A DNA stretch of 32,943 nt from Gemmatimonadota bacterium (GTDB lineage Bacteria; Gemmatimonadota; Gemmatimonadetes; Gemmatimonadales; GWC2-71-9). Numbering within the stretch: the stretch's first letter is position 1; each line of letters opens with the position of its first letter. The stretch spans positions 1 through 32,943 of the forward strand of contig JANYLJ010000049.1 of the NCBI GenBank assembly GCA_025357945.1. Direction: 5' to 3'. The translations under genes were made by a program, and so were the position numbers. The notes beneath the pieces were generated by a model, which was not told the origin of the DNA, did no database searches, and saw only the letters and a list, made by a program, of their open reading frames with translations. Positions 14,837-23,668 of this stretch are shown in pieces.

Positions 14837-15880
14837 TCAGCCAGCCTGATCGGCCGTTTCCTTTTTCACGCGTCTCTCGTCTCTCGTCTCTCGGCTCTCG
14901 TCTCGCCCAAAATCCATCTTCGCCTTGTACATCCACCTGCCATCCAGTTGCCAGATTTTCTTCGCCGAGATGCCTTCGCCTTCGGGGAAGTTTTCCTTCA
15001 AGGCATAGGCTTCGATGATCGACGCCGTCTTCGCGCTCGCGTCATCGGCAAAGTGGAGGATTTCCGCCTCCAGTGTCAGCGGCTTGACCGGTGCGCCGAA
15101 TTCCAGTTTGCCGTGGTGCGAGAGGATGAAATGTTCGAGGATCAGCTGCTCCTGGGGCGTGCATGGTGGGCTCGCCGCCCGCTCGATCGCGTGCTGCAAC
15201 ATGATCACGCCCTGCACAACGTGGCCGACCAGGCGACCGCGTTCCGTGGTGTCGAACGCTCCGGATTTCCAGCTATAGCAGTCGAGCTTGCCGATGTCGT
15301 GCAGCAGCACCCCTGCCACCACCAGTTCGATGTCGGCTTTGGCGACCCGCGCGATCTGCCGTCCGATCACCAGGACTTCGTAGGTGTGCTGCAGCAAGCC
15401 ACCGAGCATCGCATGGTGGCCGGTACCTGGCGCACCGGGGCACTGCTCGTAGCGTTCGCGAAATGCCTCGTCACGGTAAAAGAGGTCGAGCACCGCCCGC
15501 AGGCGTGCTGCGGTGAGTTTCTCGCGCGTCTCGTCGATGAACTGCCAGTACTTGTCCACCGGCCCCACGCTGGGCACCAGGTCGGCGAGCGGGACGCTCC
15601 CCTTGGGAAGTACCCGGACCGAGACCGCCTCGAGCTGATTGCTGTCGCGGTAGCTGGTGACCTTGCCGACCACCTGGACCAGCATCCCCTTGGCAATACC
15701 GCGGATCTGGTCGTCCCGCCCGGCCCAGAACGGCGCCGATACGATGTGCCCGGTCCGGTTGCCGAACGTCAGGGTGGTGCGCGGGTGCTCACCAGCCTTG
15801 GCGTCGACGTCGATCACCATGAGCGGGTGATGCACGTCGTTGCCTGGGGCGAGGGAGGGAATATCGAGGAGCTGGGTCAT
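14837..15880 (-). CDS. YhaM-like 3'-5' exoribonuclease (OB-fold + HD)
   Basis: 347 residues. The N-terminal part contains an OB-fold (GMLVQVVGKVTSYRDSNQ) and the C-terminal part an HD phosphohydrolase domain with HHAMLGGLLQHT (about 155-166), LLHDIGK (H194/D195) and SHHGKLEFG, as in Bacillus YhaM and relatives that degrade RNA or DNA from the 3' end. ATG 15880 was chosen because it matches the family N-terminus and has TATCTT 8 nt upstream, a leaderless arrangement. The last 20 or so residues are odd: ESRETRDERR is encoded by a heptanucleotide repeat tract (14871-14905), so the normal tail has been replaced or extended by repeat DNA. It is divergent from the Fis-type gene, 69 nt away. Confidence 0.87.
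   Translation of the reverse strand: MTQLLDIPSLAPGNDVHHPLMVIDVDAKAGEHPRTTLTFGNRTGHIVSAPFWAGRDDQIRGIAKGMLVQVVGKVTSYRDSNQLEAVSVRVLPKGSVPLADLVPSVGPVDKYWQFIDETREKLTAARLRAVLDLFYRDEAFRERYEQCPGAPGTGHHAMLGGLLQHTYEVLVIGRQIARVAKADIELVVAGVLLHDIGKLDCYSWKSGAFDTTERGRLVGHVVQGVIMLQHAIERAASPPCTPQEQLILEHFILSHHGKLEFGAPVKPLTLEAEILHFADDASAKTASIIEAYALKENFPEGEGISAKKIWQLDGRWMYKAKMDFGRDESRETRDERRVKKETADQAG
14871..14905 (+). repeat. Single heptanucleotide tract (TCTCGTC)n
   Basis: Copies at 14875-14881 and 14882-14888, a variant with GGC at 14889-14895, and a copy at 14896-14902, with partial units at each side. No inverted partner is found within 350 nt. On the minus strand it encodes the charged C-terminal tail of the YhaM-like protein. 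Confidence 0.9.
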
Positions 15881-15888
15881 GGGGGCGC

Positions 15889-15894
15889 AAGATA
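15889..15894 (-). promoter_or_regulatory. Leaderless-type -10 (TATCTT) before 15880
   Basis: The minus strand reads TATCTT, 8 nt, ATG. No Shine-Dalgarno is present. Confidence 0.55.
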
Positions 15895-15937
15895 CGCGCA
15901 TGTCCCGCGCCCCTCGACCCCTGGCCCCCGCCCACGA

Positions 15938-15943
15938 TACCTT
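15938..15943 (+). promoter_or_regulatory. Leaderless-type -10 (TACCTT) before 15950
   Basis: TACCTT, 6 nt, ATG 15950. It lies 43 nt from the opposing -10 element, so the two divergent promoters share one short region. Confidence 0.55.
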
Positions 15944-15949
15944 GGGCGC

Positions 15950-16270
15950 ATGCGTCCGCTGCACATCCAGCTGCTCGTGACCGATCCGCAACGCGAGGAC
16001 GTCGCCGCCCTGCGGCAGGCGCTTCGGGGGGCGGGTCACGTCGTGGTCGACGGCGAGGTGCAGCAGTTGCCCGACGGGATTTCGACCGGCGCCGACTTCG
16101 TGGTCACCGAAGCGGCTGCGGTGCCCACCCCCGAGTCGCTCGACGCGGCGGAGGCACGCCACCTCCGGGCCATGTTGCGGTTCACGAACGGCAACAAGCG
16201 ACAGGCGGCATTGCTGCTTGGTATCGCCCGGTCGACGTTACTGGCGAAGATCCGGAAGTACGGGCTCTAA
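15950..16270 (+). CDS. Stand-alone Fis-type HTH protein
   Basis: 106 residues, close in size to Fis (98). The C-terminal part, NGNKRQAALLLGIARSTL followed by KIRKYGL, is the HTH_8 DNA-binding motif otherwise found at the end of NtrC-family activators. The N-terminal 50 or so residues (PLHIQLLVTDPQREDVAALR) look like the start of a receiver-like alpha/beta domain but are too short for one, and no AAA+ domain is present. It may be a nucleoid-type regulator like Fis or a small local regulator, perhaps of the divergent YhaM-like gene. TACCTT lies 6 nt before the ATG. The stop TAA overlaps the stop of the convergent pseudopilin gene. Confidence 0.85.
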   Translation: MRPLHIQLLVTDPQREDVAALRQALRGAGHVVVDGEVQQLPDGISTGADFVVTEAAAVPTPESLDAAEARHLRAMLRFTNGNKRQAALLLGIARSTLLAKIRKYGL

Positions 16271-20024: not shown

Positions 20025-20132
20025 CAGGAGAGACGAGAGACGAGAGACGAGAGACGAGAAAATCGGGGCCCGGGGGCCGACCCTCCGATGGCTCGCTCCT
20101 CGTCTCTCGTCGCTCGTCTCTCGTCTCTCCTG
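20025..20132. repeat. Inverted repeat IR2 spanning the start of the Omp85-like gene
   Basis: Arms 20025-20058 and 20099-20132 are 34 nt long and match with a single mismatch (GAGAGAC in one arm, GAGCGAC in the other). The left arm contains four exact GACGAGA copies at 20032-20059. The 40-nt loop (20059-20098) contains the ATG at 20088 and further self-complementary GC blocks, ATCGG/CCGAT around GGCC pairs. The right arm encodes residues 5-15 of the signal peptide of the downstream protein. Confidence 0.92.
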
Positions 20133-21719
20133 TGCGTCTTCTCGCTGCTGGTCCCCGGCGTTTCGGCGGCCCAGGTCGCGCTGCGCGATTCGCTGCCGCA
20201 CATCTCCAGCATCATCATCAGGCGCAACAGCATTTTCGACTCCGGTGATTCCAGCTGGTTCGCGCGCACGATCAATTCCCTGCATGTCACGACGCGTGAG
20301 CCGCTGATCCGCCGCGAGCTGCTCTTTCATCCCCACGAGCGCTACGACTCCGCCCGGATCGCCGAATCCGAACGGATCCTGCGGTCGCTGCGGGTCTTCC
20401 GCGCGGTGGAAATCGACTCGACATCCAGCGATTCAGGTGTTGCGCTACGCGTCACCACGCACGACGGCTGGACCACGCGTCCGGACTTCCGGTTCCGCTC
20501 CACCGGCGGCTCAGTGGTGTACACCCTGGCGTTGATCGAAGACAACCTGCTCGGCACGCTCACCCAAACCGCGCTGCTCTATCAGAAGGACCCCGATCGC
20601 AGCACGACCGTACTGCGGCTCTCGCGTGGCCGGTTGATCGGAGGCAAGGTGGCCGGCACGCTCTTCTACGCCAATCGCTCCGACGGCAACCTCGGGTTCG
20701 CGCAACTGGCTCTCCCGTATTTCGAGACGGCGTCGCCCCTGGGCGCCGCGCTCACCTTCGACGACCGACGCGACCGGATCTTCCGGTATCGTGACGGCGT
20801 GCCGATCGCACACGACACGCTGCAGAACCGCTACGTGCTGGTTCGGGGCGACTTCAGTCACGCACTTCACGCATCGTCGTTTGGATACCTGCGCGCCGGC
20901 ATCACCGCGCAGGTGCGCCGCGACGACTACATCGGCGATCGCGACTATCAGTCGGCCGGCTTCGCCGCCGCCAGCGTGACCGGTGCCGTCGGTGCATTCG
21001 TGGAAGTATCGCACGTGAAGAAGCCCAAAATCGTCGGATTCCAGACGCTGGGCCATCAAGAGGACATCGATCTGAGTTCGGTGGTGCGCGTCTCGCTGTT
21101 CGCCGCTCCCGCGGCCCTGGGATACCCCGACGGCCACACCGGGCTCGTCCCAACCATCGGACTCCACACCGGCGTGCAGTTCCACGGTGGATTCGCCTAC
21201 GCTGATTTTTTCGCTGGCGGGCTGTACACCGCGACCGGACTCGACTCCGGGCAGGTCGTTCTGAGCGGCACCGTCGCGTTGCTCCCCTCGACGCGACACC
21301 AGCTGACCCTGCACGGCGAAGTCGGTGCGCTCCGAACCCCGCTTCCAGGCACCGAATTCGACCTCGGGCTCGGCGCCGGGCCGCGCGCGTTCAGCCAGCA
21401 TTCATTCACCGGTGATCGGGAATTTTTCGGCACCGCGGAATACCGATACACCGTCAGCCCGGAGTTGTTCAAGGTTGTCGGTGTGGGCCTCGCCGCGTTC
21501 GTCGATCATGGCGGCGCCTGGTGGTCCGGCGAGAAACGCCGTTCCGGCTGGGACTTCGGCGTCGGACTTCGGCTGGCGGCGTCCCGCGCGCCCGACCTGG
21601 AAACCAATCGTATCGACCTGGCGTGGCGTGCCGCGCAACCAGGAATGCCCGGCGGCTGGGTCGTCGCCGTCGGCAAGGGGTTCGTGTTCGCCACTGGTCC
21701 GAGAGGAACATCACGATGA
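20088..21719 (+). CDS. Omp85/BamA-like outer-membrane barrel protein
   Basis: 543 residues. Signal peptide about 1-27 (MARSSSLVARLSSLLCVFSL, cleavage near VSA), then a POTRA-like region about 35-125 (IRRNSIFDSGDSSW through VTTHDGWTTRPD) and a long beta-rich part with alternating aromatic and polar residues. It ends in a C-terminal strand region, VVAVGKGFVFATG, as in surface-antigen/Omp85 barrels. It has only one or two POTRA-like units, fewer than BamA, and is nearer in size to TamA/FhaC relatives, so the exact partner is unknown. The start codon lies in the loop of inverted repeat IR2 and the signal peptide is partly encoded by its right arm. ATGA joins it to the next gene. Confidence 0.82.
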   Translation: MARSSSLVARLSSLLCVFSLLVPGVSAAQVALRDSLPHISSIIIRRNSIFDSGDSSWFARTINSLHVTTREPLIRRELLFHPHERYDSARIAESERILRSLRVFRAVEIDSTSSDSGVALRVTTHDGWTTRPDFRFRSTGGSVVYTLALIEDNLLGTLTQTALLYQKDPDRSTTVLRLSRGRLIGGKVAGTLFYANRSDGNLGFAQLALPYFETASPLGAALTFDDRRDRIFRYRDGVPIAHDTLQNRYVLVRGDFSHALHASSFGYLRAGITAQVRRDDYIGDRDYQSAGFAAASVTGAVGAFVEVSHVKKPKIVGFQTLGHQEDIDLSSVVRVSLFAAPAALGYPDGHTGLVPTIGLHTGVQFHGGFAYADFFAGGLYTATGLDSGQVVLSGTVALLPSTRHQLTLHGEVGALRTPLPGTEFDLGLGAGPRAFSQHSFTGDREFFGTAEYRYTVSPELFKVVGVGLAAFVDHGGAWWSGEKRRSGWDFGVGLRLAASRAPDLETNRIDLAWRAAQPGMPGGWVVAVGKGFVFATGPRGTSR

Positions 21720-22141
21720 ACGATCATGCCGAAGTGCACAGCGATCCGACCGGGTCCGCCGCGCCCCGTATCGTGGTCCGCCACCGCCTGCCATGGGTCA
21801 TCGCCGCCGTGATCGGCGTGCCGCTCCTGGTGATCACCCTATACGCGGGATTGGTGCTGCACTGGTCGTACTCGCAGGGTGCCCGCGCCGGTGTGTTGCA
21901 GAAGTTTTCCAGGAAGGGCTGGATCTGCAAGACGTGGGAAGGCGAACTCGCGATGACGACGGTGCCCGGGGTGGCGCCCACCCTGTGGACGTTTTCCGTC
22001 CGGGACGCGCACACGGCGGAACAGGTTGGCGCCACGCTGGGTCGCCGCGTGATGCTGCACTATTCGGAACATCGTGGCGTGCCCACGAGCTGCTTCGGAG
22101 AGACGTCGTATTTTGTGGACTCGGTCGCGGTGGTGCCGTGA
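21716..22141 (+). CDS. Membrane-anchored periplasmic protein, 141 residues
   Basis: A short N-terminus (MNDHAEVHSDPTGS) and a basic stretch precede one membrane helix (about 26-48, WVIAAVIGVPLLVITLYAGL). A beta-rich domain follows with LHWSYSQGARAGVLQKFSRK, WICKTWEGELAM and VPTSCFGETSYFVD; two Cys may form a disulfide. I recall relatives with the same WSYS...RAG...FSKKGW.CKTWEGELA pattern carrying the implausible database label '6-phosphogluconate dehydrogenase'; nothing here supports that activity. ATGA overlaps the end of the Omp85-like gene and its own stop overlaps the GTG of the Sco gene, so the three are translated together. It may belong to envelope or copper handling, by neighbourhood only. 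Confidence 0.82.
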   Translation: MNDHAEVHSDPTGSAAPRIVVRHRLPWVIAAVIGVPLLVITLYAGLVLHWSYSQGARAGVLQKFSRKGWICKTWEGELAMTTVPGVAPTLWTFSVRDAHTAEQVGATLGRRVMLHYSEHRGVPTSCFGETSYFVDSVAVVP

Positions 22142-22758
22142 GCGTGGTGCAGCGCTCGGCGGCGATCCTGTTTGCCGCCGGCACGCTCGCGTGCCACGGT
22201 AACCCGGATGCATTGCTGTCGGCGCACGGGTTCATCGGCGCGGAGCTAGCCTCGCCGCTGCCGAAGCCGAGTGTTTTATTCACCGACTCTCGCGGCCATC
22301 CGTTTCAGCTCGACTCCGCCACCGCCGGCATGGTGACGCTCCTCCTTTTCGGCTACACCAGCTGTCCGGACGTCTGCCCGGTCCACCTCGCCAACCTGGC
22401 GGCGGTGCTCGACAAGATGCCGGACGACGTCCAGCGCGCGGTCACGGTGGTGTTCGTCACGACCGATCCAGCGCGCGATACACCGGCGGTGCTCGATGCC
22501 TGGGTGAAAGGGTTCGACCCACACTTTATCGGGCTCACCGGTTCCGACTCGATTATCGCAACGGCGCAGCGTATGGTTCACTTGCAGCAGGCCGTGAAGG
22601 GAAAGCCCGACGCGACGGGGGCCTACCCGGTGGGCCACGCGGCCGGCGTGATCGCCTTCACCCGCGACGGGCTCGGTCGCGTGGAATACCCCCCGGGTAC
22701 GCGCCAGCGGGATTGGGCGCATGACTTGCCGATTCTTGCCGGATACGGAGCGAAGTAG
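22138..22758 (+). CDS. Sco1/SenC/PrrC-type copper chaperone
   Basis: 206 residues. Sco proteins bind copper and help load the CuA or CuB centre of cytochrome oxidase. The thioredoxin-like fold shows the copper site YTSCPDVCP (C76, C80) and the distal His ligand H167 (YPVGHAAG). The N-terminus is a signal with a Cys at position 19 (GTLAC), possibly a lipoprotein although the lipobox is imperfect, so it sits outside the inner membrane. GTG 22138 overlaps the previous stop (GTGA). The CtaG gene begins 115 nt downstream, on the other side of inverted repeat IR3, which fits a copper-oxidase assembly pair. No oxidase subunit gene lies in the window. Confidence 0.92.
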   Translation: MSVVQRSAAILFAAGTLACHGNPDALLSAHGFIGAELASPLPKPSVLFTDSRGHPFQLDSATAGMVTLLLFGYTSCPDVCPVHLANLAAVLDKMPDDVQRAVTVVFVTTDPARDTPAVLDAWVKGFDPHFIGLTGSDSIIATAQRMVHLQQAVKGKPDATGAYPVGHAAGVIAFTRDGLGRVEYPPGTRQRDWAHDLPILAGYGAK

Positions 22759-22860
22759 GAGAGACGGGAGACGAGAGACGAGAGAGACCGGCCAGTCAGG
22801 GAAGATCCTCACCCAGCCGGCGGCCTTTGCTCGTCTCTCGTCTCTCGTTTCCCGTCGCTC
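22759..22860. repeat. Inverted repeat IR3 between sco and ctaG
   Basis: The left arm starts one base after the Sco stop (22759-22788) and the right arm is 22829-22860. Reverse complementing the right arm gives a match with about two mismatches over 26-28 nt, followed by a small slip. Both contain the GACGAGA heptad and a shared variant, GACGGGA. The 40-nt loop has a CGGCC/GGCCG pair. The right arm ends at 22860, directly before TAGTTT (22862-22867), the -10-like element of the leaderless ctaG gene. The arm therefore lies across that promoter's -35 region. Confidence 0.88.
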
Positions 22861-22861
22861 T

Positions 22862-22867
22862 TAGTTT
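22862..22867 (+). promoter_or_regulatory. Leaderless-type -10 (TAGTTT) before ctaG
   Basis: TAGTTT, 6 nt, ATG 22874. There is no Shine-Dalgarno. It starts 2 nt after the end of inverted repeat IR3. Confidence 0.55.
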
Positions 22868-22873
22868 GCTTCT

Positions 22874-23668
22874 ATGCAATGGTGGTGCTCCGCAACCGGA
22901 TTCCCGTGGACCTGGGCCTGGCAATGGTATCCCGGCGTACACCTGCTCCTCGTCCTCTTTGCGATCGGCTGGTGGCAGCTTGGCCGCCGGCAGCGCTGGT
23001 CAGCGCGGCCGTGGCGCTGGTTCGCTCTCGCCTGGATCACGCTGCTCATCACTCTCGACTGGCCGATCGGCAAGCTCGGTGCCGGATACCTCGCCAGTGT
23101 GCACACCGGCCAGTTCCTCTTGCTCACGCTCGCCGTTGGACCCTCCCTCATCAAGTGCATCCCGCCTGGCGGCTGGCTCGCGCTCGCGCCGGTTGGCACG
23201 CGACGATGGCGCCTGTTGCGCACCTTGGCGCGGCCACTTCCCGGCCTGCTCTGTTACACCGGTCTCGTCATCACGACACACTTTCCGGCCGTGGTCGATG
23301 GCGCAATGACGTCGCAGCTCGGATCGCTGAGCATCGACCTGACGTGGCTCGCGGCGGGGTTCTTCCTCTGGTGGCCGATCGCGGCACCGCGGGCGTTCGC
23401 GGCACTCGGGGTCTGGGGCACGATCGGCTACATCTTCGCGGCGACCGTGGGGCCGACCATTCCCGCGATGATGATGGTCTTCTCCGATTGGCCGATCTAC
23501 CAGCTGTATGAACTGGCGCCGCGGGTCTGGCTGCACTTCACGGCCAATCAGGACTTGAAGCTGGCCGGCCTCACCATGAAGCTGATCGGCGACGTGCCGC
23601 TCTGGATCACGGCGATGGTGGTCTTCTTTCGTGGCACCAACGCACAGGGCGAGATGGTCAACGCCTGA
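22874..23668 (+). CDS. ctaG: Cytochrome c oxidase assembly factor CtaG (caa3 type)
   Basis: 264 residues with about seven membrane helices, from YPGVHLLLVLFAIGWW to PLWITAMVVFF. Family signs are Trp-rich N-terminal motifs, SVHTGQFLLLTLAVGP in the second or third helix (an MxQH-like segment), TTHFPAV, and the late YELAPRVWLHFTANQDL region. Members of this family (CtaG_caa3, distinct from the CtaG/Cox11 copper chaperone) help assemble the aa3/caa3 oxidase. It acts in the inner membrane, presumably with the Sco protein encoded just upstream. The ATG is preceded by TAGTTT at 6 nt and has no ribosome-binding site. A reading frame from TTG 22827 in another phase is an accident of the repeat. Confidence 0.88.
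   Translation: MQWWCSATGFPWTWAWQWYPGVHLLLVLFAIGWWQLGRRQRWSARPWRWFALAWITLLITLDWPIGKLGAGYLASVHTGQFLLLTLAVGPSLIKCIPPGGWLALAPVGTRRWRLLRTLARPLPGLLCYTGLVITTHFPAVVDGAMTSQLGSLSIDLTWLAAGFFLWWPIAAPRAFAALGVWGTIGYIFAATVGPTIPAMMMVFSDWPIYQLYELAPRVWLHFTANQDLKLAGLTMKLIGDVPLWITAMVVFFRGTNAQGEMVNA

Follow-up and report, generated by a model that had tools for sequence, protein, structure and literature searches.

In a genome of the Gemmatimonadota (GenBank assembly GCA_025357945.1), the 115-nt gap between the stop codon of sco and the ATG of ctaG is filled by inverted arrays of a seven-base repeat, GAGAGAC on the left and GTCTCTC on the right. This arrangement raises the question of whether the element ends the sco transcript, bears on the start of ctaG, does both, or is a by-product of mutation. 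The window analyzed is a stretch of 32,943 nt from contig JANYLJ010000049.1. A first-pass annotation had placed the left array from the first base after the sco stop, the end of the right arm 1 nt before TAGTTT, and the off-repeat variant GACGGGA in both arms, all of which was borne out by the coordinates and the sequence (Table 1). It had also correctly counted the element as the third heptad pair in the window, the other two lying at 1-70/145-212 and 20025-20058/20099-20132.

Table 1. Features of the sco-ctaG gap and its flanking genes (window coordinates)
Feature	Position	Strand	Basis or remark
sco (SCO1/SenC)	22138..22758	+	Upstream of hairpin; Pfam PF02630, E 6.6e-28
Left purine-rich arm, 3.9 GAGAGAC heptads	22759..22785	+	Repeat and pairing searches
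Off-repeat variant GACGGGA in left arm	22763..22769	+	Sequence
Loop with GC-rich inner stem, between arms	22786..22829		Sequence and fold
Right pyrimidine-rich arm, inverted heptads	22830..22860	-	Repeat and pairing searches
GACGGGA in right arm (TCCCGTC on + strand)	22850..22856	-	In-register pairing with 22763-22769
TAGTTT, TANNNT-type -10 candidate, -12 from ctaG ATG	22862..22867	+	Sequence; genus-wide signal
ctaG, ATG at 22874	22874..23668	+	Pfam PF09678; start kept in relatives (alignment)

The best inverted pairing joins 22749-22785 with 22834-22870 in 37-nt arms that are 86% complementary, and the stem covers the sco stop codon on the left and TAGTTT on the right, exceeding the extent annotated at first pass. 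The predicted RNA fold of the gap hairpin has a free energy of -75.4 kcal/mol, which was reached by none of 200 dinucleotide shuffles (mean -44.9, SD 3.7; z = -8.3). Since the ctaG start is kept in relatives, the end of the hairpin lies 3 to 13 nt upstream of the true start of this gene. The tail 3' of the hairpin is T-rich yet broken (TTAGTTTGCTTCT), and a scan of the gap for intrinsic terminators, defined as a stable short-loop stem followed by at least five T in eight bases, returned no site, its loop limit of 8 nt excluding a long-loop design. A scan of the gap for TTGACA/TATAAT promoters likewise returned no site. A search of Rfam gave 11 matches at E values up to 1, all below the gathering score and 10 of them to microRNA hairpin models, and assignment of the hairpin to a known structured RNA family was dropped.

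Coding potential of the heptad arms

The frame running from TTG 22827 through the right arm had been taken as a hint of an older signal-peptide context, an idea that was rejected. This frame passes through ctaG out of frame, and the pyrimidine heptad encodes L, S, R or V in whichever frame it is read, so that the signal-like peptide is an effect of composition. Relatives lend it no support, as 7 of the 10 genus members lack a repeat in the sco-ctaG gap and 2 carry a different heptad. The idea is reasonable for the other two pairs in the window, since their right arms encode hydrophobic gene starts. In the pair at 1-70/145-212, the right arm specifies the first, hydrophobic residues (LVSRLSSLVSLISLISLAAPVSA) of an amidohydrolase (gene 75-1841, + strand), with the left arm just upstream of this stretch, and complementarity extends over approximately 68 nt, well past the heptads. 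In the pair at 20025-20058/20099-20132, the right arm codes for a signal-like N-terminal stretch (MARSSSLVARLSSLLCVFSLLV) of an Omp85-like protein (gene 20088-21719, + strand); here, heptad arms seem to serve as coding sequence for a signal peptide. The window also holds a lone pyrimidine heptad array without a partner at 14869-14904, close to where a minus-strand gene (14837-16162) ends.

Abundance of heptad pairs in the genome and the genus

The genome carrying the window (G000) measures 3.01 Mb in 75 contigs and was compared with nine further members of its genus (G035, G055, G067, G074, G081, G086, G090, G094 and G098). It groups with Gemmatimonadota genomes from metagenomes, its CtaG having as closest named relatives two records labeled "Gemmatimonadetes bacterium", with 78 and 77% identity. 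The 19-mer GAGACGAGAGACGAGAGAC is present in 159 copies in G000, where its reversed control has none, and in 10 of 395 genomes of the phylum: five belong to the genus (159, 63, 58, 22 and 3 copies), and the other five are scattered through another family of the order.

Inverted heptad pairs were sought in 433 kb of G000, including the window, together with targeted loci, in 400 kb of G035, in 200 kb each of G055 and G067, and in smaller pieces of G094, G081, G090, G074, G086 and G098. The contigs sampled from G000 (C18, C27 and C36) were long contigs among the matches listed for GAGACGAGAGACGAGAGAC, and the targeted loci, chosen for their array hits, were left out of the gene-context test. Sixty heptad-periodic inverted pairs were found in G000 and the genus samples, none of them in the 200 kb of G055. 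The counts by heptad omit a further 37 pairs whose seven-base periodicity was below 0.6, as well as a pair located within a gene. Exact tandem runs with periods 4 to 12 numbered 0, 0, 2, 21, 0, 5, 0, 0 and 2 in G000 and 0, 0, 3, 35, 0, 1, 1, 0 and 0 in G035, so that only period 7 is prominent.

GAGAGAC is the main unit of G000 and also occurs in G035 and G094, while the main units elsewhere are of the GTGAGAC and GTAAGAG types (G035), GATGACA and GAGACTA (G067), GATAGGA (G094), and GGTGAAA and GGTGAAC (G090). The use of heptads with stop triplets as a read-through stop cassette was considered and dropped, as GAGAGAC contains no stop in any frame. The loops of 11 pairs, set side by side for comparison with MITEs, whose copies share an internal sequence and a target-site duplication, differ between copies. 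Four contigs of G000 (C1, C6, C33 and C45) end in or near heptad arrays, and array lengths and pair numbers are therefore probably underestimated. Long intergenic inverted repeats of a second kind (GTCATCCTGAGCG...GTCGAAGGACC), which form a family not based on heptads, were also seen in G000 (C27, 53858-53991; C36, 71643-71780), in G035 (C8, 200402-200541) and at locus L174.

Gene context and polarity of the pairs

The 60 pairs comprised 27 between convergent genes, 23 between tandem genes, 4 between divergent genes, 5 at the edge of a contig or stretch, and 1 inside a gene. Gap counts and distances are approximate because genes were called with our own codon-usage caller, and the pairs are no strict subset of the gaps because hairpins sometimes touch called gene ends. 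With this reservation, 16 pairs per 62 convergent gaps, 16 per 243 tandem gaps and 3 per 97 divergent gaps were counted on the contigs sampled from G000, G035 and G067, with one edge pair omitted. Convergent gaps differed from both divergent (Fisher, 2.4e-5) and tandem ones (6.5e-5), and tandem and divergent gaps on the same contigs did not differ significantly (P = 0.30). Twenty of the 23 tandem pairs lie closer to the upstream stop than to the next start, and several convergent pairs occupy the whole stop-to-stop space (for example, C27 75307-75398 and C36 82955-83062).

The left arm is the purine-rich one in 58 of 59 pairs, and in 18 of 19 classes when pairs are classed by their most frequent heptad. 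As an inverted repeat is identical when read from either strand, a transcript of either strand would present the purine arm first and the pyrimidine arm second. Such polarity is expected of an element read as RNA, and a DNA cruciform gives no reason for it. Downstream of the hairpins, T made up 0.31 of the first 10 nt (77 tandem and convergent ends) and 0.33 of the first 8 nt at the 23 tandem ends, versus 0.19 in tandem gaps. Mismatches between arms were also tallied: on the sense strand of tandem pairs G-U outnumbered A-C by 20 to 7 (P = 0.019; cells not independent), and on the + strand of convergent pairs, where no bias is expected, the counts were 12 and 21. This asymmetry was dropped, as one pair supplied 7 of the 20 G-U mismatches and, among the eight tandem pairs in which the two counts differ, G-U exceeded A-C in six, which is not significant.

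The same gene ends in related genomes

Comparison of the sco-ctaG spacer among relatives, suggested at first pass, showed heptad hairpins in 3 of the 10 genus members, each built from a different heptad: GAGAGAC in G000, GATAGGA in G094 and a GGTGAAC-like unit in G081. The gap is 21 nt in G035 and 33 nt in G055, both without a repeat, and only 2 to 4 nt in G074 and G098; a spacer of approximately 440 nt in G067, G086 and G090 was read by eye as another gene. In the family at large, sco and ctaG are mostly found with a 4-nt overlap, a few nucleotides apart, or separated by approximately 430 to 500 nt.

The comparison was extended to five further gene 3' ends (sites A to E) at which G000 has a GAGAGAC-type hairpin; relatives lacking coverage of the orthologous end (many at site D, some at sites A and E) were excluded, and G094 was assessable at four sites. 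A GAGAGAC hairpin was present at these sites in none of the relatives assessed. At A, G094 has a hairpin not built of heptads and G035 has none. At B and D, G094 carries a hairpin of a different heptad, and the D hairpin of G035 is not heptad-based. At C, nothing was seen in G094, the hairpin of G090 is of the GGTGAAA type, and G035 shows a weak heptad pair. The G094 hairpin at A, where G000 has a heptad hairpin, is related to the GTCATCCTGAGCG...GTCGAAGGACC family. Unpaired arrays were found at A in G035 (GAGCGAC/GAGAGAC) and G081 (GGTGATT) and at C in G067 (GGGAGAA). At B, the heptad arms of both G000 and G094 enclose the terminator-like core GGGGCTCC. The letters of the heptad appear to be unimportant and are replaced in evolution, with the architecture retained.

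The ctaG start and the TANNNT signal

TANNNT is the -10 motif of leaderless promoters in other phyla. In the genus, it stands at -15 to -11 in 25 of 214 genes that face a divergent neighbor, compared with 11 of 441 operon-internal genes, an enrichment taken as a sign of leaderless promoters. After tandem hairpins, the motif is present at -15 to -11 in 6 of 23 genes (P = 6.5e-5 against the same 11 of 441) and at -60 to -11 in 12 of 23, compared with 44 of 441 operon-internal genes. It is not significantly more common after hairpins than after hairpin-free tandem gaps of 20 to 49 nt (P = 0.08), nor does its frequency after hairpins differ significantly from that before divergent genes (P = 0.09), so the signal marks a region of transcription start and is not an effect of the hairpin.

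The first-pass annotation had proposed a leaderless promoter for ctaG at the edge of the right arm, and the evidence for it is indirect: besides the genus-wide signal, TAGTTT at -12 in G000 and TATCTT at -11 in G094 precede ctaG starts that lack a Shine-Dalgarno-like motif. These are the only two genomes in which the hairpin abuts ctaG and the only two with TANNNT at -12 or -11 of this gene; the motif is absent from -15 to -11 of ctaG in the other eight genus members, the starts of G090 and G098 having been projected from the alignment.

Similarity between the arms of a pair

Sharing of GACGGGA by the two arms had been taken as an argument for copying of one arm from the other. This variant is found in 6 of the 52 arms of G000, namely, in both arms of two pairs and in one arm of two others, and its presence on both sides of the sco-ctaG element thus hints only faintly at copying; a variant common to both arms would be retained by selection for pairing as well. 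In an arm-swap test, arms of G000 matched their own partner with a score of 53.8 versus 48.9 for other partners, and with an outlier pair removed the values were 51.1 and 48.6 (29 of 5,000 permutations), a significant but small effect. The contrast in G035 (50.1 versus 24.7) is inflated because different pairs use different heptads, and G090 gave none (n = 4; 993 of 5,000 permutations). Among off-consensus columns in ungapped pairs of G000, 34 are common to both arms and 40 are not, and most of the shared ones lie outside the arrays. Arms need not share a heptad at all, as a pair in G035 (C8, 347449-347654) has mostly GTGAGAC on the left and GAGAGAC on the right. Arm copying as a general rule was dropped in view of the slight contrast in G000, its absence in G090 and the pairs with mixed heptads. 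The best single case for copying is site D of G094, with 42 matching positions out of 43 between the arms, irregular heptads included.

Proposed role of the hairpin and rival explanations

We lean toward reading the heptad-built hairpin as a terminator-like 3'-end element of sco, with ctaG restarting from a leaderless promoter of its own. The purine-first inverted repeat would act as RNA, forming a hairpin at the 3' end of sco at which RNA polymerase would stop, most likely ending the sco transcript. Hybrids of pyrimidine RNA with purine DNA are weak, and the stop could arise when the nascent purine arm pairs with the pyrimidine arm held in such a hybrid, an arrangement that would work on both strands alike. 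The ctaG mRNA would then begin at its ATG, from the promoter at the edge of the right arm. That the sco transcript ends at the hairpin had been proposed at first pass, and the position of such hairpins across the genus, their polarity and the T-richness downstream lend it indirect support. Counting against a terminator are the 4 of 54 placed pairs between divergent genes, the 1 of 60 within a gene and the lack of a canonical U-tract at sco-ctaG. Rho was found in 10 of 10 genus genomes (8 above the curated cutoff), so these genomes need not rely on the hairpins, which are not the sole possible terminators. A broader form of this reading, which we think rather unlikely, is that a sizeable share of 3' ends in the genus bear hairpin terminators written in the heptad of each lineage, both arms being rewritten together at many orthologous ends in a concerted turnover that conserves polarity and pairing alone.

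The main rival, possible if doubtful, is that heptad slippage and template switching generate the pairs as a mutational by-product that is tolerated just after stop codons and has no function at sco-ctaG. Template switching has been described as a source of hairpins (PMC8794818), and complementarity running into non-repeat flanks, as in the pair at 1-70/145-212 and in the G094 hairpin at site D (42 of 43 nt), fits such an origin. So do the prominence of period 7 alone, the unpaired arrays at orthologous ends (G035 and G081 at A, G067 at C), the change of heptad between relatives at the same site, and the absence of the element from sco-ctaG in 7 of 10 genus members and of heptad pairs from 200 kb of G055. 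What a by-product does not predict is the purine-first order in 58 of 59 pairs, the T-rich downstream sequence and the promoter-like signals that follow the hairpins.

In a third reading, the hairpin shields the sco mRNA from 3' exonucleases without stopping the polymerase, leaving sco and ctaG on one transcript. It would then be a 3' stabilizer resembling REP/BIME elements. The very stable predicted stem at the 3' end agrees with it, and such roles have been proposed for extragenic palindromes (PMC3733652, PMC2817692). Read-through, however, would put the ctaG start 3 nt past a stem of -75 kcal/mol with no Shine-Dalgarno-like motif, a poor place to begin translation, and ctaG has a TANNNT of its own; we therefore regard a pure stabilizer as quite improbable. 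An element acting as DNA, whether a cruciform, a supercoil sink or a barrier against collisions between converging genes, would account for the strong preference for convergent gaps, but a cruciform offers no reason for purines coming first in 58 of 59 pairs and sco-ctaG is a tandem joint, which leaves this reading highly improbable.

Comparison with known systems

Like intrinsic (Rho-independent) terminators, the elements are predicted to form an RNA hairpin right after a stop codon, purine-rich upstream and T-rich downstream, and at site B of G000 and G094 the heptad arms contain a core of the GGGGCTCC type; unlike them, they have no clean U-tract, a long stem, a long loop and heptad repetition. 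With REP/BIME they share dispersal as extragenic palindromes and proposed roles in termination or mRNA stability (PMC3733652, PMC2817692), but the heptad hairpins have no fixed unit sequence. The RAYT-type domain Y1_Tnp (PF01797) was found in 5 of 10 genus genomes and was absent from G035 (98% complete, with 18 heptad pairs in 400 kb) and G094 (80% complete); as its presence does not track the hairpins, a RAYT-driven REP was rejected.

Intergenic heptads have been described in Xanthomonas (GGGAATC) and Nostoc/Anabaena [GGGGA(C/T)T], with 186 and 183 arrays and 70 and 75 inverted pairs in two Xanthomonas genomes (PMC4692102). In the parts of that study concerned with Xanthomonas, downstream arrays lie 0 to 50 bp from the stop and have their purine-rich (G-rich) unit in the coding strand, heptads are underrepresented between divergent genes, and their length and sequence vary among related species. 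They also occur in transcripts of both strands, by which termination is not demonstrated. The account centers on the G-quadruplexes that the G-rich units of Xanthomonas and Nostoc form in vitro, leaving the functional role to be elucidated (PMC4692102). The hairpins described here resemble those of Xanthomonas in having tandem units of exactly seven bases, two closely spaced arrays in convergent orientation with the purine unit first, a location near stops and rarity between divergent genes. They differ in that several heptads coexist in the genus, with the heptad at the same gene end differing among relatives, and in that GAGAGAC, GATAGGA and GTGAAAG have no GGG tract, which places GAGAGAC and the other main units without GGG outside the G-quadruplex subset of intergenic heptads.

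The P6b stem of the group I intron in Nostoc trnL (tRNALeu UAA) is built of heptads of two classes that have repeatedly been replaced with a similar fold kept (PMC4476775). The Gemmatimonadota hairpins are likewise predicted RNA stems of heptads replaced at the same place, but are dispersed at gene 3' ends where P6b is a single intron locus. The TAACTGA heptads of marine Beggiatoaceae, abundant and intergenic as here, are direct repeats upstream of starts, with one inverted case (PMC4679880), as opposed to inverted pairs. No account of inverted heptads in Gemmatimonadota was found among the open-license titles and abstracts searched. Already known are dispersed inverted heptads near stops, from Xanthomonas, and heptad replacement in a kept stem, from one Nostoc intron; new are the host group, the absence of G-tracts from the units, and the exchange of one heptad for another at several orthologous gene ends. 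For the role of bacterial intergenic heptads, sco-ctaG is a clean test object, as one gene joint carries GAGAGAC, GATAGGA, a GGTGAAC-like unit or no hairpin within a single genus. That heptads free of G-tracts share the polarity and the gene-end location of the Xanthomonas arrays suggests that what unites these systems is the inverted hairpin rather than the quadruplex.
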